Below, piece by piece: positions 2 to 11,724 of a DNA stretch of 11,992 bases (position 1 is the first letter of the stretch; each line of letters begins with the position of its first letter). The translations under genes were made by a program, and so were the position numbers. The notes under the pieces were generated by a model. That model made no database searches. It had not been told where the DNA came from and was given only the letters and a program-made list of their open reading frames with translations. Source of the DNA: Actinomycetota bacterium (GTDB lineage Bacteria > Actinomycetota > Humimicrobiia > Humimicrobiales > Humimicrobiaceae); NCBI GenBank assembly GCA_022865545.1, contig JALHTA010000010.1:1-11992 (forward strand), written 5' to 3'.

Positions 2-748
2 AGAAAAAACAAGCTCGCTTTCAATAATGCCAAGAGTATAAAAAAAGACAATAGCAGCGATATGGTAATCATTGACAGAAAACGGCAAATGATAAAAATA
101 AAAGAGATTATCGAAAACCATGAAAATATTGAGACCAGGCAGGGTCTTGTAATAGAATTAATTTTCGATGATAGTATCTATCATACAGTAACAAACGACG
201 GTACTACATATAAAAGCAAAGCCATTATATTAGCTCCCGGAACTTTTTTTGATTCAATAATATTCTGGGGATCTTATTGTATTGCTGCTGGAAGACCAGG
301 AGAGATAGCGTCAAAAAGACTTTTGAGAAATCTTATTAAAACCGGTTTTGAATTTGTAGAAGCGAAAGTATATTCTGGACCTAGAATTGACGGAAGAACC
401 CTGGACCTAAATAAATATATTAGAAACAAGGAAAGCCATAAACTAAATATAATCCCGGAAGGAAAAGAGACAAGCGAGTTGTATGTTGCTGGAGTTATGA
501 CTGCTAATAGTGAGGAAGAACAGTTAAAAACATTAAGGGAGATAAAAGGCCTGGAAAATGTAATAATTACAAGGCCAGGATATGGTATTAAATATAATGT
601 CCTCTCCCCGCTCCAAATAAATAAAAACCTTGAAAGCAAAATATTCCCAGGTCTATTTTTTTGTGGAAGGATAAATGGTCTGTCGGAGTATGAGTCTACT
701 GCGGCTCAGGGATATCTTGCAGGAGTAAACGCATTTAATAAAATATAA
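2..748 (+). CDS. MnmG/GidA-like FAD protein, short paralog (5' partial)
   Basis: The frame is open to the left edge, so the ATG at 62 is probably internal and the true start is outside the window. From about residue 83 of MnmG onward it aligns collinearly with the full mnmG next door: the FAD-domain strand (SKAIILAPGTFF against SKAVIIATGTFL), GPRIDGRTLDL against PPRVDRRTIDF, the IIPEGKETSELYVAG block, ITRPGYGIKYNVLSPLQ, and a C-terminal FAD motif (GLFFCGRINGLSEYESTAAQGYLAGVNA). It lacks about 80 residues between these blocks, including the segment that carries the second catalytic cysteine (GPRHCPS in MnmG). It ends where the helical MnmE-binding domain of MnmG would begin. It is therefore neither a normal MnmG nor obviously TrmFO. 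FAD binding is likely, but the missing cysteine argues against standard tRNA U34 modification. Its actual role is unknown. Confidence 0.8.
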   Translation, partial: RKNKLAFNNAKSIKKDNSSDMVIIDRKRQMIKIKEIIENHENIETRQGLVIELIFDDSIYHTVTNDGTTYKSKAIILAPGTFFDSIIFWGSYCIAAGRPGEIASKRLLRNLIKTGFEFVEAKVYSGPRIDGRTLDLNKYIRNKESHKLNIIPEGKETSELYVAGVMTANSEEEQLKTLREIKGLENVIITRPGYGIKYNVLSPLQINKNLESKIFPGLFFCGRINGLSEYESTAAQGYLAGVNAFNKI

Positions 749-2678: not shown

Positions 2679-3409
2679 TTTTAGAACAAAAAAAGGCGCT
2701 TTATGAATATCTTGGAAAGACAGGTATTAATAATGACAGTGAAAAGATAGATAAGGTTATAAACTACCTGGAAATTGTATACGAAAAAAATAAAGTGATT
2801 AATCTTATAGGTACAAAAAAAAAGGAAGATATTTTTATCAAGCATATACTGGACTCACTTTCAATATTCAATATAAAAATATTGAAGGAAGGAGAGCTCC
2901 AAGAAAAAAAGATTATAGATATAGGAACCGGTGGAGGACTGCCAGGGATACCCATCTCTATATTTTTACCAGAGTCAAAAATATTTCTGGTTGATAAATC
3001 AAAGAAAAAAACTGACTTCCTAAGGGAAACAATAGAAAAACTTGATCTTAAAAATATAATAGTCATTACAGATAGGGCGGAAGAGCTTTCCAGAAAAGCC
3101 AGTTTTAGGGAAGAGTTTGATATAGTCATTGCCAGGGCCGTTACAAAATTTAATATTCTTTTAGAAATAGCCATTCCATTTTGCACCATAAATGGTAAAA
3201 TTATATTTTATAAGAGCAAGAAAGTATTTGAGGAAATAAAGGAGCACAGTGAGGCAATGTCCAAACTTGGAGGAGAGTTCGAGGAGCTATATGATGTTGA
3301 AGTCCCGGACCTTGAGGGGTTTAGGACTTTTTTAATTCTCAAAAAAGAGAAACGGACTCCTTTAAAATACCCAAGGAATTTTGCCCTGATTAAGAAAAAG
3401 CCTTTATAG
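2675..3409 (+). CDS. rsmG: 16S rRNA (guanine527-N7)-methyltransferase RsmG
   Basis: RsmG (GidB) methylates N7 of G527 in the 530 loop of 16S rRNA using S-adenosylmethionine. The 244-residue protein has the Rossmann-fold SAM motif DIGTGGGLPGIPI (from D82), the acidic end of the second strand in IFLVDKSKKKTDFL, the IARAV motif, and the typical basic tail KYPRNFALIKKKPL. The length fits Gram-positive-type members. Its ATG overlaps the mnmG stop by 4 bases, and AGGGAAG upstream inside mnmG provides a ribosome site. Loss of this enzyme is known in other bacteria to give low-level streptomycin resistance. Confidence 0.96.
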   Translation: MILEQKKALYEYLGKTGINNDSEKIDKVINYLEIVYEKNKVINLIGTKKKEDIFIKHILDSLSIFNIKILKEGELQEKKIIDIGTGGGLPGIPISIFLPESKIFLVDKSKKKTDFLRETIEKLDLKNIIVITDRAEELSRKASFREEFDIVIARAVTKFNILLEIAIPFCTINGKIIFYKSKKVFEEIKEHSEAMSKLGGEFEELYDVEVPDLEGFRTFLILKKEKRTPLKYPRNFALIKKKPL

Positions 3410-3420
3410 AAAATCATAAA

Positions 3421-3444
3421 TTGTACATATAGCAAAATGTACAA
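3421..3444. promoter_or_regulatory. Inverted repeat upstream of parA (possible operator)
   Basis: TTGTACAT and ATGTACAA are exact 8-bp inverted arms around an 8-base spacer. Each arm also contains the palindrome TGTACA, so two palindromes sit 16 bp apart centre to centre. It lies in the 61-bp gap between rsmG and parA, about 27 bases before the parA start. No T-run follows, so a terminator is unlikely. An operator for a promoter in this gap is an inference. Confidence 0.4.
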
Positions 3445-3470
3445 AAACATAAATATAGGATGGCAGATAA

Positions 3471-4286
3471 ATGGAAATAATGGAAAAAATATTTAAGAAA
3501 AAAAGTAAAGATAATAAAAAATTCCTTAATAGAGTGATAGCAATAACCAATCAAAAAGGTGGTGTGGGCAAAAGCACGACAGCGGTGAACATATCTGCAT
3601 ACCTTAGCTCATATGGATATGAAACATTGATAATAGACCTTGACCCTCAGAGCAATTCGACAAGCGGAATGGGAATAAATCCTGGAAGCGTTGTTAAGTC
3701 CATATATGATGTTATTATTATTGATGCTGATCCGCATGAAGTTATTATCGATACTGCTTATAAAAACCTTAGGATTCTTCCTTCATCAATACAGCTTGCA
3801 GGCGCTGAGGTAGAGCTTGTCTCCAGCCTTAAAAGGGAATACCGCCTCAAGGAAGCTGTGAATAAAATTGAGGAAGAATATGATTTTATAATCATTGACT
3901 GCCCCCCCGCGCTCGGACTTCTTACAATAAATGCACTCAGTGCTGCAAAGGAAGTGATCATACCGATCCAATGTGAGTATTATGCACTTGAAGGATTGGG
4001 ACAGTTATTAAATACGATAGATCTTGTAAAGAAAAACCTTAATGAGGATTTAAAAATAAGTGGTGCGGTTATGACAATGTATGATTCTAGAACAAAGCTA
4101 GGGGATCAGGTCATAGAGGAAGTCAAAAATCATTTTTCTAATAAAGTATATAAGACGATAATACCGAGAAATATCAGGCTCAGCGAAGCTCCCAGCCATG
4201 GCAAACCCATAATAGATTATGATCCGGAGTGCAGGGGAGCAGAGGCATATAATAATTTTACAAAGGAAGTGATAGACAATGGCTAG
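3471..4286 (+). CDS. parA: Chromosome-partitioning ATPase ParA (Soj)
   Basis: This is a deviant-Walker ParA/MinD ATPase that works with ParB and parS in origin segregation and can influence replication initiation. The deviant Walker A box is QKGGVGKSTT (residues 28-37, with signature Lys29). The A' motif is IIDLDPQSN (54-62) and Walker B is FIIIDCPPALG around D143. The C-terminal IIPRNIRLSEAPSHGKP stretch is typical of chromosomal Soj proteins. The 271-residue length is slightly long because about 20 mostly basic residues (MEIMEKIFKKKSKDNKKFLN) precede the usual start of the fold. The ATG at 3471 is favoured by AGGATGG seven bases upstream. A second in-frame ATG at 3480 would shorten the extension by three residues. 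The gene overlaps parB by 8 bases. Confidence 0.97.
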   Translation: MEIMEKIFKKKSKDNKKFLNRVIAITNQKGGVGKSTTAVNISAYLSSYGYETLIIDLDPQSNSTSGMGINPGSVVKSIYDVIIIDADPHEVIIDTAYKNLRILPSSIQLAGAEVELVSSLKREYRLKEAVNKIEEEYDFIIIDCPPALGLLTINALSAAKEVIIPIQCEYYALEGLGQLLNTIDLVKKNLNEDLKISGAVMTMYDSRTKLGDQVIEEVKNHFSNKVYKTIIPRNIRLSEAPSHGKPIIDYDPECRGAEAYNNFTKEVIDNG

Positions 4287-5145
4287 AAGAGGATTAGGAA
4301 GAGGACTTGGCGCATTGATACCAAGCGCAGATAAGACCAGGGAAGAAGGTCCAAAAAAAGAAAGAGTCATGGAGCTTTTACTGGATGATATAGTCCCGAA
4401 TAAAAATCAACCAAGGTCCAAGTTTAAAGATGAGACCCTGGACGAACTAGCCGAATCAATAAAAGAGTTTGGGGTGCTTCAACCGATAATCGTTAGAATT
4501 ATTGAAGGGGAAGATAAATACGAGATAATAGCCGGAGAGAGAAGATACAGGGCTACCAAAAAAAACGGTATTAGTACGATACCAGCACTTGTGGTTGAAA
4601 AAGTAACTGATACAGCAGCCCTGGAAATGGCACTTATAGAAAATATTCACAGGGATGATCTATCTCCAATGGAACAAGCTTACTGCTATAAGCAGCTTAT
4701 TGATGAATTTGAGATAACTCATCAGGAGATGTCAAAAAGAATAGGCAAGAGCAGGACAGCTATAACCAATATTTTGAGACTCCTTACCCTTCCGCTGGAG
4801 GTTCAAAAGATGCTGGATGTTGACAGCATAAGCGAGGGCCATGCAAGGGCGCTTCTTGGACTGGGAAGCAAAGAAGAACAAATAAGAATAGGTAAGAAAA
4901 TTGCTGAAAAGGGAATGAGTGTAAGAGAAGTAGAAAAACTAGTTGATAGGCAAAAACAAACCCTTGATACAACAAACGAGAGGAAAGCCCTGCAATTCAA
5001 TAAGATCCCAAGAATAACTGAGCAATTAAGTACGCACCTCGAAACACAAGTAAGGATAAATATTGGAAAGAAAAAAGGAAAGATCGAGATAGAGTTTGAC
5101 AATATAAAAGAACTTGAAAGAGTGGTGGGAAAAATAATTGGATAA
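4279..5145 (+). CDS. parB: Chromosome-partitioning protein ParB (Spo0J), CTPase clamp
   Basis: ParB loads at parS, slides as a CTP-dependent clamp, and stimulates ParA through its N-terminus. The 288-residue protein has the basic ParA-activating tail RRGLGRGLGALIP (3-15). It also has NQPRSKF and the LAESIKEFGVLQPIIVR block, the CTP-binding GERRYRA motif (86-92), and ENIHRDDLSPMEQA (121-134). A helix-turn-helix follows around 147-170 (THQEMSKRIGKSRTAITNIL), and the C-terminal dimerisation region ends FDNIKELERVVGKI. All key motifs are intact. The start ATG lies inside the last codons of parA (ATGGCTAG), so translation is probably coupled. The parS site at 764-779 is its expected target. Confidence 0.97.
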   Translation: MARRGLGRGLGALIPSADKTREEGPKKERVMELLLDDIVPNKNQPRSKFKDETLDELAESIKEFGVLQPIIVRIIEGEDKYEIIAGERRYRATKKNGISTIPALVVEKVTDTAALEMALIENIHRDDLSPMEQAYCYKQLIDEFEITHQEMSKRIGKSRTAITNILRLLTLPLEVQKMLDVDSISEGHARALLGLGSKEEQIRIGKKIAEKGMSVREVEKLVDRQKQTLDTTNERKALQFNKIPRITEQLSTHLETQVRINIGKKKGKIEIEFDNIKELERVVGKIIG

Positions 5146-6004
5146 AAAACCTCCGTGGTTAAAGAAAAAGATAGGTCTTGATAATAAAAACATATCAGCC
5201 ATAAAAAACCTTATAGATTCTTCATGTCTTCATACTGTTTGCCAGAGTGCAAAATGCCCCAATATATTTGAATGCTTTAGCAAGCGCACCGCAACCTTTA
5301 TGCTGATGGGGGACAGGTGCACGAGAAATTGCGGATTTTGTGGAGTGAAGAGCGGCAGGCCACTTCCACTTGATAGGGATGAACCTAAAAAAATAGCATC
5401 GGCCATAAAGGAAATGGACCTCCTCTATGCAGTTATAACATCTGTTACAAGAGATGATCTTGATGATGGGGGAGCCTCACATTTTGCCGAAACCGTAAAA
5501 GCTATAAAAAAACTAAATCCTGATACAAGAGTAGAATGCCTGGTGCCTGATTTTGGAGGAAATAAAAAGAATCTGGAGACCTTATTATTAGAGGAACTGG
5601 ATGTCCTAAACCATAATATAGAGACAGTTGAATCTAACTATAGTAAAGCAAGGAGCAGTGCAGATTATGAGCGTTCTCTGAAGCTGCTTAAAAGGGCAAA
5701 AGAGATAAGACCTGATATTTATACCAAATCGGGATTTATGCTGGGGCTTGGTGAAAGCAAGGAACAGATATTAAAATTATTAGAAGATCTCAAAAAGAAT
5801 AAAGTAGATATTATTACAATAGGACAATACTTAAGTCCTTCAGAAGACAATATAGCTATATCAAAATACTATACACCGGAAGAATTTAAAGAAATTGAAA
5901 AAACCGCTAGAAAATTCGGATTTAGGGCGGTTGCGGCAGGTCCCTTTGTCCGCTCTTCATATGGGGCGGAACTAGTGCTCGATAAGGCTTTGGAAAATAA
6001 ATAA
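5138..6004 (+). CDS. lipA: Lipoyl synthase LipA (radical SAM)
   Basis: LipA inserts two sulfur atoms into octanoyl groups bound to lipoyl domains (2-oxoacid dehydrogenase E2, glycine cleavage H), at the cost of its auxiliary iron-sulfur cluster. The 288-residue protein carries the auxiliary-cluster motif C-x4-C-x5-C (Cys35, Cys40, Cys46). The radical SAM motif CTRNCGFC has Cys61, Cys65 and Cys68. The C-terminal RSSY motif (272-275) supplies the serine ligand to the auxiliary cluster. The N-terminal KKPPWLKKK matches the family's usual start. Translation must begin at TTG 5138, since no ATG or GTG fits before the conserved region. This start is preceded by GGTGGGA and overlaps the end of parB by 8 bases. 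No lipB or lplA is nearby. Confidence 0.96.
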   Translation: MDKKPPWLKKKIGLDNKNISAIKNLIDSSCLHTVCQSAKCPNIFECFSKRTATFMLMGDRCTRNCGFCGVKSGRPLPLDRDEPKKIASAIKEMDLLYAVITSVTRDDLDDGGASHFAETVKAIKKLNPDTRVECLVPDFGGNKKNLETLLLEELDVLNHNIETVESNYSKARSSADYERSLKLLKRAKEIRPDIYTKSGFMLGLGESKEQILKLLEDLKKNKVDIITIGQYLSPSEDNIAISKYYTPEEFKEIEKTARKFGFRAVAAGPFVRSSYGAELVLDKALENK

Positions 6005-7314: not shown

Positions 7315-8607
7315 ATGCAAAAAAGAAAGCTGCTTATAGCTATTGTAGCTATTCTCACTATTTCCCTCATTGGCTTGGCTGCTACATGTTTGGCTCCTGG
7401 CGAGACTCCAACCCTGGAGCTGGAAATATATGATGGTCCTGATTATTCAGAGACAGACAATATGTGCTACTACAGGGTAGAAGCTACAGCAACAGGCATG
7501 CCTGAACCCGAGATTGAATTTGGTGATGATGACAATGTTAGCGCACTTGGTTCTGGCAGAGTGGAAGTGGGTGTAGAAGTTGGTGATACCTATACTCTTA
7601 CAGCAACTGCTACAAATTCAGCGGGTACCGCTTCTGTTTCCATTATCCTTGAAGGTGAGTGCGATGAAGAAGCTGCCGATGCAGACACAGATGCAGACAG
7701 TGACGCCGACACAGATGCAGACGCAGACACAGACAGTGATGCAGACGCAGATAGTGATGCAGACGCAGACACCGACAGTGATGATGATGCAGATGTAGTA
7801 AAAGAAGCTCCAACCATTAGTATAGCGGTCTACGAAGGGCCCGCCCCGGAAGGAAGTATATGCTACTATAGAGTCAAAGCTACAGTTACCGGCAGTCCGA
7901 GTCCCACAGTCAGTTTTAGTAAGGATGATAGCGGAGGTGCTTGGCTCCCTAAAAGGGTCCAGATTAATTTAAATAATCCTGCTGATACCTATACACTTAC
8001 TGCAACTGCGACCAATTCGGAAGGCTCTGCTACAGATTCCATTGAACTTAGCTGGGGCTGTCCGATACCTGAACCTGAGCCCATAGAAGAAGATGTGAAT
8101 ATAGCTGTTGATACCAGCAAAAGTGGTTATATAATGGTGGATATGGGTGCATTTGTAGGGACTAATTATACATATGTAGGTGACTATGGTGGTAATAAAC
8201 AAGTAAAGACCTATTTAAGTTTTAATATAGGCGGTATAAGCAGTCTGGAAGATGTGACTATAAAAAATGTTTCTTTGTCTATGCCAGTAGATTCAATTAC
8301 AGCGCACCCTGAATTAATGCCGGAGGTGCACGTCAGAGAATTCGATTATGGCGATTCTTTGGAACTTGCTGACCAGGTTGCCGGCGGTGACTTTGTAAAG
8401 ATCTTTCCCGCGACTGCCACTATGACAAATTTTAATTTCTCAAGTCCTGAATTAATAGCAAAATTGCAGAATGCTGTAAATACAAATGATCAAAGGTTCC
8501 AGTTGAAAATCAGTCTAAGCGGTATAAATTCTGATAATGTGTCTGACGTGTACGTGTTTGTACTCGGTAATATACAATTACATGTTGAATATGAGATACC
8601 TGGATAG
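7315..8607 (+). CDS. Surface protein: two Ig-like domains, Asp/Ala linker, beta-rich C-terminal domain
   Basis: I do not recognise a named family. The 430-residue protein begins with a signal sequence (basic KRK, hydrophobic 6-23). It may be lipidated at Cys25, but LAATC is a poor lipobox because Thr precedes the Cys. Ig-like domain A (about 33-116) and domain B (about 166-249) are clear duplicates. Both share the CYYRV strand and TYTLTATATNS, and each has a cysteine pair (51/116 and 183/249) suited to an intradomain disulfide. Between them, residues 122-160 are made almost only of Asp, Ala, Thr and Ser. A short Pro/Glu hinge (PEPEPIEED) leads to a C-terminal domain (261-430). Its pattern (VKTYLSFNIGGIS... 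VTIKNVSLSMPV) recalls carbohydrate-binding DNRLRE-type domains, but that is a weak resemblance. The start is ATG with AGAGAGG five bases upstream. The gene is monocistronic and followed by a strong terminator. Confidence 0.85.
   Translation: MQKRKLLIAIVAILTISLIGLAATCLAPGETPTLELEIYDGPDYSETDNMCYYRVEATATGMPEPEIEFGDDDNVSALGSGRVEVGVEVGDTYTLTATATNSAGTASVSIILEGECDEEAADADTDADSDADTDADADTDSDADADSDADADTDSDDDADVVKEAPTISIAVYEGPAPEGSICYYRVKATVTGSPSPTVSFSKDDSGGAWLPKRVQINLNNPADTYTLTATATNSEGSATDSIELSWGCPIPEPEPIEEDVNIAVDTSKSGYIMVDMGAFVGTNYTYVGDYGGNKQVKTYLSFNIGGISSLEDVTIKNVSLSMPVDSITAHPELMPEVHVREFDYGDSLELADQVAGGDFVKIFPATATMTNFNFSSPELIAKLQNAVNTNDQRFQLKISLSGINSDNVSDVYVFVLGNIQLHVEYEIPG
7672..7794 (+). repeat. Low-complexity GA(C/T)-GC-rich tract encoding an Asp/Ala/Thr/Ser linker
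   Basis: Imperfect 6- and 12-base units of the form GAYGCAGACACAGAY run through this tract and encode alternating Asp with Ala, Thr or Ser (residues 120-160 of the Ig-domain protein). Codons for Asp and Ala are mixed (GAT/GAC, GCA/GCC), so the tract is not freshly expanded. It should form an extended, highly acidic spacer. Confidence 0.85.
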
Positions 8608-8925: not shown

Positions 8926-9585
8926 ATGTTTAAAAAAATATTAGTGGTCATACTTATCGGAGCTATAATTTTTATTTTATTTATTTTCATAAAGTATAAT
9001 GAACAGGTAGTGCAAATTGTAGAAAATATTCCCATAGGTGGCACATATGTAAAATGGAGAGTAGTTAAAGAAAAAATGCCATGCAACATCACAGAGGCTG
9101 CATCTTATGAATATTATGATGAAGATAGACTTTTGGAGAGATCCGATCTTATATTCAAAGGGATAGTTACTGACGCAAAGGAAATTTACGTTAAAGAATA
9201 TTTTGATGGAAGGCTTAACGCTGAATATTATATGGATGTTTTTACATTCGAGATAGAAAAAATATATTATTCGGAAGACCCTACTTTAAAAATTGGCGAT
9301 ATAATAAAAGTTGCAAATGGCAGCTCTCCCAGTGATTGGCTTGAAGGCACTTTAAGGATGGAAAAAGATAAGGAGTATATTGTGCTGACATATAAAGACT
9401 ATCACACAAATACGATTATATTTCCAAAATATTGTGATTATGTTACTGTAGATCGCTATATTTCGATAATCAGAGTAGAAAATGGCGACTACTTTGTTGA
9501 TAGAGAGTTAGAATCTTTAACAAGCGACGCAAAGGAAGAAATAATAAGGGAAGATTATGGATTTGAGACTACAGTCTATGTATAG
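8926..9585 (+). CDS. Membrane-anchored protein of unknown function
   Basis: I do not recognise it firmly. The 219-residue protein has one N-terminal hydrophobic helix (about 4-23), either a signal anchor or an uncleaved signal peptide, followed by an extracytoplasmic region. Residues 70-160 (RSDLIFKGIVTDAKEIYV ... YYMDVFTFEIEKIYYSED ... LKIGDIIKVANG ... MEKDKEYIVLTYKD) follow the strand pattern of small beta-barrel domains. In those domains 'adlIv.G.V' begins the barrel and 'l..GeeYivF' closes it; they are common in secreted proteins of Gram-positive bacteria. The ATG at 8926 has AAGGATGG seven bases upstream. The TAG stop is followed in the same frame by 19 more sense codons of coiled-coil character (see 9583-9645), so this may be a truncated allele. 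It stands alone between long intergenic regions. Confidence 0.75.
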   Translation: MFKKILVVILIGAIIFILFIFIKYNEQVVQIVENIPIGGTYVKWRVVKEKMPCNITEAASYEYYDEDRLLERSDLIFKGIVTDAKEIYVKEYFDGRLNAEYYMDVFTFEIEKIYYSEDPTLKIGDIIKVANGSSPSDWLEGTLRMEKDKEYIVLTYKDYHTNTIIFPKYCDYVTVDRYISIIRVENGDYFVDRELESLTSDAKEEIIREDYGFETTVYV

Positions 9586-9645
9586 GGTGAAGAACTTGAA
9601 CAGGAGCTTGAAGAACTTATTTTAGAGAAGAAGAGTGAAAATTAA
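9583..9645 (+). other. In-frame extension behind an amber stop
   Basis: After TAG (9583-9585), the frame of the preceding gene continues as GEELEQELEELILEKKSEN and then TAA at 9643-9645. The segment is Glu/Leu-rich with heptad spacing and looks like a genuine charged C-terminal helix. It ends exactly where the 31-bp repeat begins. TAG is an ordinary stop elsewhere in the window (rsmG, parA and the gmhB-like gene), so a nonsense mutation is more likely than recoding. Confidence 0.5.
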
Positions 9646-9721
9646 GGTAGCCCCAAGTATTGAAATTTCGAACCAAGTTTTAATAGAACTAAATAAATTA
9701 AATAAACTTTTTCTTAAATAA
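9635..9721 (+). CDS. Short ORF (28 aa), probably an N-terminal remnant; copy 2
   Basis: A GTG at 9635 with purine-rich GAGAAGAAGA just upstream opens a frame starting MKIKVAPSIEISNQVLIE and ending LFLK with TAA. It overlaps the last codons of the extension behind the amber stop. Residues 5-14 are identical to residues 2-11 of the frame at 8716. It is too short to be a typical protein, and a relic of a lost gene is the likeliest reading. Confidence 0.35.
   Translation: MKIKVAPSIEISNQVLIELNKLNKLFLK
9646..9676 (+). repeat. 31-bp exact direct repeat, copy 2
   Basis: It is identical to 8718-8748 and in the same orientation, 928 bp downstream. The two copies bracket the membrane-anchored gene. 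It begins immediately after the TAA at 9643-9645. Confidence 0.95.
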
Positions 9722-9738
9722 TAAACAAATATAATTTT

Positions 9739-9843
9739 TTATTGTGGACCAGAATCAGGGAAATTTCCCTTTGTAGCTTCATTTAAATTTTCATGCTGTG
9801 ATAATTCAGGTTTCTGGTATTCTTTTTTATTATCTTTTTTCAT
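9739..9843 (-). CDS. 34-aa RiPP/lasso-precursor-like peptide
   Basis: The peptide starts MKKDNKKEYQKPELSQHENL and continues NEATKGNFPDSGPQ. It matches the spacing of the lasso-peptide leader motif Y-x2-P-x-L-x3-G-x5-T: Tyr9, Pro12, Leu14, Glu18 in the Gly position, and Thr24. Thr24 then sits two residues before a Gly26 that could be residue 1 of a core. In lasso precursors this motif binds the RRE protein and Thr occupies the -2 position. The putative core (GNFPDSGPQ) is only 9 residues and its acidic residue is at position 5 rather than 7-9, so a classical lasso ring is not expected. The ATG has AGAAGG eight bases upstream. No cyclase, protease, RRE or exporter gene is in the window. It could be an orphan precursor, a different RiPP type, or a chance small ORF with an unusually good fit. 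Confidence 0.55.
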   Translation of the reverse strand: MKKDNKKEYQKPELSQHENLNEATKGNFPDSGPQ

Positions 9844-9936
9844 ATTATTAAACCTTCTGTAATTTTTTAAGTATTGATTAATTATGCCGTAGTTCATAAT
9901 TATTTTTAACTCTCAATGTGATAAATAAATCGGTTC

Positions 9937-9967
9937 TGGTAGCCCATACAAAAGTTAGTTGGAACCA
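9937..9967 (+). repeat. Degenerate relative of the 31-bp repeat, copy 3
   Basis: It has TGGTAGCCC, then 16 bases, then GAACCA, the same spacing as in copy 1 (8717-8747), with the middle diverged. TCTGGT (9935-9940) and ACCAGA (9964-9969) form a 6-bp inverted repeat around it. The first 11 bases (GGTAGCCCATA) recur exactly at 11783-11793. Confidence 0.45.
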
Positions 9968-10241
9968 GATTAAAAGTGATGTAATGCTATTAAATAAGTT
10001 GAAATTTGCCTGAAATATTTTAGCCGACTACTCTACACAATGATAATATCAGGATATGTATATTTAAAAAATCATTATGCAAAACTCCTATCATAGAACC
10101 AACATCTGAATATATATGTAATATATATAATTTTAATATTAATATTTGTATATTATAAAACAGTTTGTTACAATAATAACTAAAGCGCACATATCTTCGA
10201 ATGGTCCAATAGGTGATGGAATCAATATTTCTATAATTATT
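9968..10241. other. AT-rich intergenic region upstream of the propeller gene
   Basis: I see no convincing gene here. The notable element is AATATTAATATT (10135-10146), the same 12-bp palindrome found inside the operator-like site at 7232-7247. It is followed by TATATTATAAAA (from 10149), which may hold a -10 element. Confidence 0.4.
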
Positions 10242-10246
10242 GGAGG
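10242..10246 (+). promoter_or_regulatory. Shine-Dalgarno that fixes the start of the propeller gene
   Basis: A perfect GGAGG lies 8 bases before ATG 10255. It overlaps an in-frame TTG at 10240 that would otherwise add five residues, so the ATG is the start. Confidence 0.85.
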
Positions 10247-10254
10247 TAAGTAAA

Positions 10255-11724
10255 ATGAAGAAATCAATATTATTGATAATGATATTCCTATTATGTGTAT
10301 CCATAAGCTTTTCTATGGGTCCAACTGGTTGTGAAGAAGAGGCGATAGCCCTTGATAAAAGGATGATAGAGGATGCCAAGAAAAAGGTTGATGATATAAA
10401 AGCAGACGAGAATGCTTCCTCTCCAGAGAATAATTATCCTACAATTGCAGTAATGCATTCTCCAGCTGATTATTATATATCCAGTCGGTGTGAAATATCA
10501 GTAGAGTGTAATGATCCTGATGGAGATGATCTTGAATGTGTGTTGAATGCAGATAGGGGTAACTTTACAGATTTAGAATTTCCTGATCCAGACTTACCAA
10601 ATGAGCCAATAGAACCAACCCCTACTTATAGGTATACTGTTGATTATGCTGGAACCTATGTTTTTACCTGGACGGCTCCAGATACGCCCGGCATGTGTGC
10701 TATTACTGTTGAAGTAAATGATGGAAAAGGCGGAAAAGCATATAAAACATTAAATATACAGGTCACCCCTTTATTTCCGGATGATTGGATAGACATAACC
10801 CGTGGAATTCTAGGTCCTCAACGACGTAGATTATCCGCATCAGAGTTAGCTAGTAGAATTGAACTAAATCAAGAGGCTAATGAGGCAGGTATAGAGTATT
10901 TTAGGGGGTTAGCACTTGACAGAATACTCTTCTCCTCCTGCCCTGAAGGAGATACTTGTTCTGCATATACAATTAGGCCCAACGGAGATGATATGCAACC
11001 ACTATGTGTGGATTTTGAAGTTAGCGAAGCCTGCTGGAATTCAGATTATTCAAGGATGATTTGTGTCTCAACTTGTGGCGGGGAAGATGATAGAGATATT
11101 TACGAATGCAATGTCTCAACCTGCGAGAGACAATCTATAATAGAGAGAACGGAAGGATGTGATTTTTCACCACACCCACATCCATATGGATCATTACTTC
11201 TCTCTACCGGCTTTTTAAATGATACCTTTGAAATATTTTTAACAGGAAGTCCCATAAAACAGCTTACTGATGACCCTAACTGGGATGACTATCCCCACTT
11301 TTCTCCCAATGGAGAGACAATAATCTTTTCCAGTAATAGAGGTGGATATAGTAAGCTATATACTATGAATCTAGATGGCAATAATGTTGTGAAAATAACT
11401 AATGGTGATGAGTACAGTGATTGGAATGGCTCTTATTCACCTGATGGTACACAAATAGTTTTTATATCAGATAGAAGTGGAAATATTGATATATGGGTCA
11501 TGCCTGTAAATAATCCAAGTGATGCAATAAATCTTACCAATAATCCATCAGCTGATATAGCTCCTGACTGGTCACCTGATGGTAGTATGATTGTCTTTGC
11601 ATCAGATAGAGATGAGAATAATAAGGATATGCTTGATATTTTTGTAATGGATGCAGATGGAGAAAATCAGGTAAATATCACTCCTGATCTAAAAGATTCC
11701 TATCAGGGTGAACCAAATTGGTAA
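10255..11724 (+). CDS. Secreted Ig-like plus TolB-like (PD40) beta-propeller protein
   Basis: The 489-residue protein has a signal sequence (about 1-20, hydrophobic 5-19). Cys26 in GPTGC is a possible but non-canonical lipidation site. An acidic/basic helix (27-55) is followed by an Ig/cadherin-like domain (60-171), with NDPDGDDLEC ... YVFTWTAPDTPG ... ITVEVNDGKGGKA. A propeller follows (about 215-489). Its last three blades carry clear PD40 repeats: FSPNGETIIFSSNRGG, YSPDGTQIVFISDRSG and WSPDGSMIVFASDRDE, each followed by LYTMNLDG/DIWVMPVN/DIFVMDADG. The first half of the propeller is cysteine-rich (229-302) with weaker blade motifs, consistent with six blades. TolB-like propellers usually mediate protein contacts in the cell envelope. 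No tolA, tolR or pal is nearby, so a Tol function is not implied. Confidence 0.88.
   Translation: MKKSILLIMIFLLCVSISFSMGPTGCEEEAIALDKRMIEDAKKKVDDIKADENASSPENNYPTIAVMHSPADYYISSRCEISVECNDPDGDDLECVLNADRGNFTDLEFPDPDLPNEPIEPTPTYRYTVDYAGTYVFTWTAPDTPGMCAITVEVNDGKGGKAYKTLNIQVTPLFPDDWIDITRGILGPQRRRLSASELASRIELNQEANEAGIEYFRGLALDRILFSSCPEGDTCSAYTIRPNGDDMQPLCVDFEVSEACWNSDYSRMICVSTCGGEDDRDIYECNVSTCERQSIIERTEGCDFSPHPHPYGSLLLSTGFLNDTFEIFLTGSPIKQLTDDPNWDDYPHFSPNGETIIFSSNRGGYSKLYTMNLDGNNVVKITNGDEYSDWNGSYSPDGTQIVFISDRSGNIDIWVMPVNNPSDAINLTNNPSADIAPDWSPDGSMIVFASDRDENNKDMLDIFVMDADGENQVNITPDLKDSYQGEPNW

Follow-up and report, generated by a model that had tools for sequence, protein, structure and literature searches.

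A 34-codon orphan gene in an Actinomycetota genome as the probable precursor of a linear, serine-phosphorylated peptide with a lasso-type leader

Linear polyphosphorylated peptides (LPPs) are made by a cyclase-less, lasso-like machinery that was described in 2026 and that its authors consider restricted to Bacillota (PMC13381572). LPP clusters combine a discrete RRE with a YxxP motif in the leader, an HprK-like kinase, and an uncharacterised NTP transferase, contain no macrolactam cyclase, and use SpI as leader peptidase; in Bacilli, these clusters, along with those of paeninodin, often lie within capsular polysaccharide loci. The precursors (35-200 aa) join a conserved leader with the consensus YxxPxVLxHQxIxFETxxS to a variable C-terminus, the core of LppA comprising 45 residues. 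Core Ser is phosphorylated by an HprK-like kinase in both LPPs and BsfA (PMC13381572; PMC10368454), while deletion of LppN led to no change in detectable product (PMC13381572).

The phosphorylated lasso peptides paeninodin, pseudomycoidin, and BsfA provide a second point of reference (PMC8498205, PMC10368454). In BsfA-type precursors, the YxxPxL motif occupies leader positions -17 to -12, and most lasso precursors carry Thr at -2; Ile at -2 is known among BsfA-type precursors, in which Thr at this position blocks cleavage (PMC10368454). B1 assists both the kinase and the B2 peptidase of BsfA, Ser3 is the residue phosphorylated, and cleavage persisted when one or two residues of YxxPxL were changed to Ala, as did phosphorylation where measurable (PMC10368454). 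For pseudomycoidin, a nucleotidyltransferase was reported to place one or two hexoses on the phosphorylated peptide, and the known kinases target either a C-terminal Ser (PMC8498205) or Ser3 (BsfK, LppK). Additionally, approximately 300 lasso-model RREs co-occur with radical SAM (rSAM) enzymes according to the authors of PMC7470986, B2, kinase, and nucleotidyltransferase not being described for such clusters in the accessible part of that source.

The window analysed here, i.e., the whole stretch of 11,992 nucleotides, carries on its minus strand, at 9739..9843, an intergenic gene of 34 codons plus stop that translates to MKKDNKKEYQKPELSQHENLNEATKGNFPDSGPQ. The peptide consists of a leader of 25 residues (9769..9843, minus strand) that ends in Thr(-2)-Lys(-1) at a putative cleavage site, followed by a predicted core, GNFPDSGPQ (9742..9768, minus strand), delimited by the region that is hypervariable across 11 homologs. 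Homolog alignment identifies YQKPEL (9802..9819, minus strand) as the YxxPxL RRE-binding motif; if Thr24 is numbered -2, its Tyr9 lies at -17, Pro12 at -14, and Leu14 at -12. A preliminary description of this DNA had proposed the gene, the spacing of Tyr, Pro, Leu, and Thr, Gly26 as core residue 1 two residues past Thr, and a core of nine residues with Asp at position 5, all of which hold; the Gly that it placed in parentheses between Leu and Thr does not, this position being Glu18. The ribosome site that it ascribed to the gene would correspond to a GAAGG stretch at 9853..9857 (minus strand), which is ribosome-site-like as judged by its letters alone. The two neighbouring genes, both taken as unrelated to the peptide, encode a 219-aa protein that matches no family and a second protein that carries TolB-like propeller repeats. 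A promoter scan of 9560-10300 returned five promoter-like sites against 5.6 in shuffles, a terminator scan of the same interval found none, and the window yielded neither a tRNA nor, at gathering score, any Rfam match. Searched alone, the peptide had no Pfam match and a single sub-threshold NCBIfam match, to a lasso precursor model (12.5 of 33 bits, E 0.11).

On its own, the bare motif would be weak evidence for a gene, 0.0975 matches being expected by chance per window (first-order Markov model, mean of 400 simulations), and to this extent a chance ORF could be argued. Against it stand the relatives whose search the preliminary description had suggested: in a single-peptide search that matched 5 of 61 genomes at E <= 10 (own included), 10 more genes were found, all in four other genomes of the same family, at E 3.1e-10 to 5.5e-4. 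A profile of the 11 sequences matched 5 of 35 family genomes (own included) and the same 11 genes at E 4.3e-20 to 2.2e-16, values that are partly circular, as the profile was built from these very sequences, and one of its alignments runs beyond the start of its gene, through a stop. A named-genome scan with one exact peptide pattern yielded 33 stretches, of which the peptide profile confirmed four loci in three MAG records (JAUVXY01, JAQVJB01, JAFGMJ01); their match positions are nearly those of G006:C26, G027:C118, G027:C110, and G016:C70 (G-number and C-number denote genome and contig of the compared genomes, and G000 the genome of the window). The peptide was not found in G001, the sole same-genus genome in the searches. 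No relatives occurred in viral contigs, in a pattern-limited scan, or in the plasmids searched, and an origin from a mobile element was rejected on these grounds. As far as searched, the precursor family is confined to one family of Actinomycetota MAGs; this family, to which the window very probably belongs, is an uncultured one.

The family shares the leader consensus YxKPELxEHENLxEVTKG, in which Tyr9, Lys11, Pro12, Glu13, and Glu18 are invariant (11/11, the window's copy included), position 14 is Leu, Ile, or Val, and Thr occupies -2 in 10 of 11 members. The remaining homolog, in G016 (L018 2699-2797, plus strand), has Ile at -2, as BsfA does (PMC10368454), and Gln at core position 1. Counted from the Tyr codon, 17 leader codons give pS 0.79 and pN 0.15 across all pairs, a coding pattern, and the leader is under purifying selection. 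The preliminary description had named two findings that would speak against it, a lack of conserved homologs in relatives and a non-coding substitution pattern, and neither was obtained. In 10 of 10 comparisons, the window's leader displays fewer amino-acid changes than when an equal number of nucleotide changes is placed at random; the P values lie between 0 in 5000 draws and 0.025, although these comparisons lack independence and many of them approach saturation in pS; the leaders of the window and G016 differ by nine nucleotides and three amino acids (P 0.007). Homologs in four other genomes, together with the codon substitution pattern (pN far below pS), thus rule out a chance ORF, the probability of which we regard as practically negligible, and the 34-codon gene can be accepted as real and, judged from its codons, clearly coding. 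An intergenic gene that is missing from a list of ORFs of 60 codons can therefore be a real precursor.

The cores, by contrast with the leaders, are hypervariable and comprise 9-12 residues (n = 11, six of them from one genome, G027). Ser is present at core position 5-8 in all 11, followed by 3-5 residues, a pattern that shuffled cores match with a frequency of 5e-5 (20000 shuffles; test chosen post hoc). In the window's peptide, this residue is Ser31 (core position 6; 9751..9753, minus strand), a candidate phosphorylation site whose role is proposed on the basis of a kinase-like gene in relatives; its placement differs from that of the C-terminal Ser or Ser3 (BsfK, LppK) targeted by the known kinases.

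The 11 genes occupy six loci, namely arrays of two (G006:C26), three (G027:C118), and three (G027:C110) and single copies in the window, G016:C70, and G021:C50. A radical SAM gene lies tail-to-tail with the precursor array in 3/3 multi-copy arrays, and no cassette gene adjoins the three single copies, that of G021:C50 lying 146 bases from the contig end. All genomes are fragmented MAGs, and the two near-complete cassettes are each broken over two contigs. In G006:C116, a Wzz-like gene precedes genes for an RRE (2147-2404; PqqD, 54.6 bits, cut-off 23.4), a B2 leader peptidase (2423-2842; NF033537, 40 bits, cut-off 33), an HprK-like protein (2832-3818), a PF14907 nucleotidyltransferase (3815-5026; 99 bits, cut-off 31.2), and a DUF362 protein (5030-5911), as well as the start of a radical SAM gene (5908-end). 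The RRE remains under the NCBIfam lasso-PqqD cut-offs (54.2 of 70; 53 of 80), and the HprK-like kinase likewise falls short of the curated threshold of each matching model (Hpr_kinase_C, 26.7 of 33.3; HprK_rel_A, 31.3 of 200). The two partial radical SAM genes of G006, on C116 and on C26, encode the counterparts of residues 2-145 (63% identity) and 157-456 (60%), respectively, in the protein from G027, as expected if a contig break had divided a single gene. The only radical SAM protein available in full contains a B12-binding domain (PF02310, 50.9 bits; PF04055, 74.9 bits); it resembles BchE, HpnJ, and ApyD models but stays under the cut-off of each of the best 25 of its 30 matching models. 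It has matches at E <= 1e-30 in 20/61 genomes, but apart from those in G006 and at the two precursor loci of G027 they share only 27-33% identity.

A second cassette, with the gene order of G006:C116, seems to be formed jointly by G027:C110, which runs on into DUF362 and PF14907 genes, and G021:C46, which ends in RRE, B2, and HprK-like genes. As the ends of these two contigs have exactly 127 bases in common (L016 4404-4530; L090 1-127), one cassette seems to be split, probably between two bins, assigned to different genera, of a single assembly. Between the two cassettes, the HprK-like proteins (with a GxSGxGKST loop), the nucleotidyltransferases, and the DUF362 proteins are 42%, 53%, and 57% identical, respectively, and B2 of both exceeds the lasso B2 cut-off. 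G010:C91 likewise has, at a contig end, an RRE together with a B2 that is truncated; this B2 is over the Pfam cut-off and has no NCBIfam match at 1e-8. All three B2 proteins share the Cys of NPC[IM]IRS and the His of GHSW, which we take to be catalytic. As a measure of how widely the cassette occurs, the nucleotidyltransferase profile was run on 396 Actinomycetota genomes drawn evenly from a larger group and matched two of them, so that a wider spread was rejected for this sample. A distant HprK-like protein (L096; G033:C207:1052-1372, minus strand; 31% identity, E 2.6e-8) is encoded in another genome of the same family, G033, which has no precursor or nucleotidyltransferase match.

Genes for sugars and polysaccharides accompany several of these loci: a polysaccharide flippase at G006:C26, a UDP-sugar dehydrogenase and Wzz at G006:C116, a DegT aminotransferase, a dTDP-sugar epimerase/WxcM-like protein, and a nucleotide-sugar dehydratase at G027:C118, and a family 2 glycosyltransferase at G010:C91. 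The setting is weaker at G021:C46, given the scores of the three neighbours scanned there (one NAD-epimerase-like, one sub-threshold mannosyltransferase-like, and one matchless). Such neighbours suggest a possible envelope or capsule role for the product.

The leader (YxxPxL at -17 to -12, Thr at -2) has the spacing of lasso precursors, RRE (B1) and B2 occur together in relatives (G006:C116, G021:C46), B2 exceeds the lasso cut-off, and Asp/Glu is found at core position 7-9 in 6/11 cores, all of which would be expected of a true lasso precursor whose cyclase lies elsewhere in the genome. However, according to the ORF lists, the stretch of G006:C116 from the Wzz-like gene to the contig end, that of G006:C26 from the radical SAM gene to the flippase, G027:C110, and the RRE end of G021:C46 contain no Asn-synthetase-like gene, although the contig break in the G006 cassette could hide sequence. 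PF00733 matches exist in all five genomes searched (G000, G006, G016, G021, G027); among six Asn-synthetase-like proteins scanned (one fragment from G000 and five from the other four genomes, five weaker partial matches being left out), the best models were asparagine synthase or EPS amidotransferase, four of the six fell under every curated cut-off, and the lasso-cyclase model scored at most 283 of 525 bits. The G000 fragment, on C30, was rejected as a lasso cyclase, its best model being asparagine synthase B (292 bits, cut-off 499). Furthermore, five cores, including that of the window, lack an acceptor at position 7-9, and the other six have only 2-3 residues beyond it; the combination of Asp/Glu at 7-9 with a threaded tail is thus absent from the window's peptide. 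With no cyclase seen and no regular acceptor, membership in the lasso peptides was rejected and a true lasso precursor is very improbable, in agreement with the earlier expectation that no classical macrolactam would form. Compared with the phosphorylated lasso peptides, the YxxPxL position, B1, B2, kinase, and nucleotidyltransferase recur here, whereas the cassette has no visible cyclase, the core is short, and DUF362 and radical SAM genes are added (PMC8498205, PMC10368454). The term "lasso" holds for the leader and recognition machinery only.

LPPs are, on the best reading, the closest known kind. G006:C116 unites the discrete RRE, HprK-like kinase, and NTP transferase without a cyclase, and the YxxP motif, the conserved leader with variable C-terminus, and the polysaccharide loci are common to both (PMC13381572), so that the family looks as if it works as LPPs do. 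This common logic, along with the existence of 35-aa LPP precursors, could also indicate an LPP family member proper that was moved from Bacillota by horizontal transfer. Nevertheless, the cassette encodes a B2-type cysteine peptidase rather than an SpI-like (SipW-type) one, of which a Pfam scan confined to cassette proteins returned none; its leader, YxKPELxEHENLxEVTK, deviates from the LPP consensus; its cores of 9-12 residues contrast with the 45 of LppA; and its cassette adds DUF362 and B12-binding radical SAM genes, neither term appearing in the main text of PMC13381572. In addition, unlike in LPP clusters, no MsbA-like transporter was present among the cassette genes scanned, and the hosts belong to Actinomycetota instead of Bacillota. 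Since peptidase and leader consensus differ, we do not place the family among the LPPs, and such a transfer is improbable.

In its own genome, the peptide is an orphan. Five cassette enzymes (RRE, B2, kinase, nucleotidyltransferase, and radical SAM) were sought in G000, an assembly of 2,132,106 bases spread over 487 contigs, with a completeness of 92.09% and a contamination of 5.9%. PqqD gave no match; the best Transglut_core3 match (E 0.013; frames of 836 and 614 residues) stayed under the cut-off; none of 10 radical SAM candidates scored reached E <= 1e-30; and searches for the nucleotidyltransferase (E <= 1e-5) and for the HprK-like protein (E <= 0.001) returned nothing. Neither the RRE nor, over the cut-off, the transglutaminase-like protease that the preliminary description had proposed to seek in the same genome was found there. 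That description had offered a new modified-peptide class, a degenerate copy, or one member of a family with enzymes elsewhere. A locally non-functional copy is conceivable given these absences: the lineage may once have had the cassette and lost its enzymes, the precursor persisting without function. G001 also lacks the peptide, and in G016 (77% complete), which has it, no kinase, nucleotidyltransferase, or radical SAM ortholog was found and no B2 above the cut-off, the PqqD search having covered G000 only. Against a relic speak the intact frame, ribosome-site-like stretch, and Thr24, as well as leader differences that are biased to synonymous sites, also against the G016 copy, and a genome in 487 contigs leaves room for a six-gene cluster in a gap; we consider it unlikely, though less so than the other alternatives. 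The enzymes serving the window's peptide may lie in an assembly gap, may have been lost, or may be supplied by something unrecognised.

Our preferred reading, to which we assign a probability of about 0.7, is that the gene encodes the precursor of a linear, Ser-phosphorylated, and further tailored peptide, belonging to a cyclase-free family with RRE, B2, kinase, nucleotidyltransferase, DUF362, and radical SAM genes; the conserved leader, the hypervariable cores, and this cassette in relatives support the RiPP, lasso-type precursor proposed in the preliminary description. By analogy with BsfA, pseudomycoidin, and LPPs, we infer a pathway in which the stand-alone PqqD-type RRE (B1) would capture the leader, the HPr-kinase-like enzyme would phosphorylate the conserved core Ser, and B2 would cut behind Thr-Lys, freeing a peptide of 9-12 residues. 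The PF14907 nucleotidyltransferase might decorate the phosphate, and the DUF362 protein and the B12-binding radical SAM enzyme might add further modifications. As no lasso cyclase was seen, the product would presumably remain linear or be closed by other chemistry.

The literature covered, a scope that excluded most subscription papers and bioRxiv, listed no cassette that lacks a cyclase and combines B2 with DUF362 and radical SAM genes. Retention of B2 with no cyclase seen, the addition of radical SAM and DUF362 genes, and the occurrence in another phylum are new here compared with LPPs, which suggests that the RRE/YxxP front end can be reused as a module. More tentatively, and with doubt outweighing confidence, these loci may represent a new RiPP class of very short linear peptides, in which a cyclase-less, lasso-type RRE/B2 pair acts with kinase, nucleotidyltransferase, DUF362, and B12-radical SAM enzymes on precursors, some of them scattered as stand-alone genes, to give a product bound for the cell-surface polysaccharide. 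In any case, the compact gene set could be used to probe B2 and the kinase/nucleotidyltransferase pair outside the lasso fold.

Two further features of the window were observed. Directly before a full-length mnmG gene (795-2678), a 228-aa GidA-type ORF (62-748, plus strand) has no match to the C-terminal domains of mnmG and may be a tandem paralog or a remnant. At 7315-8607 (plus strand), a protein with an Asp-rich, DTDADSDAD-like repeat is encoded, and the repeat is where this protein weakly matches Sdr-repeat adhesin models.
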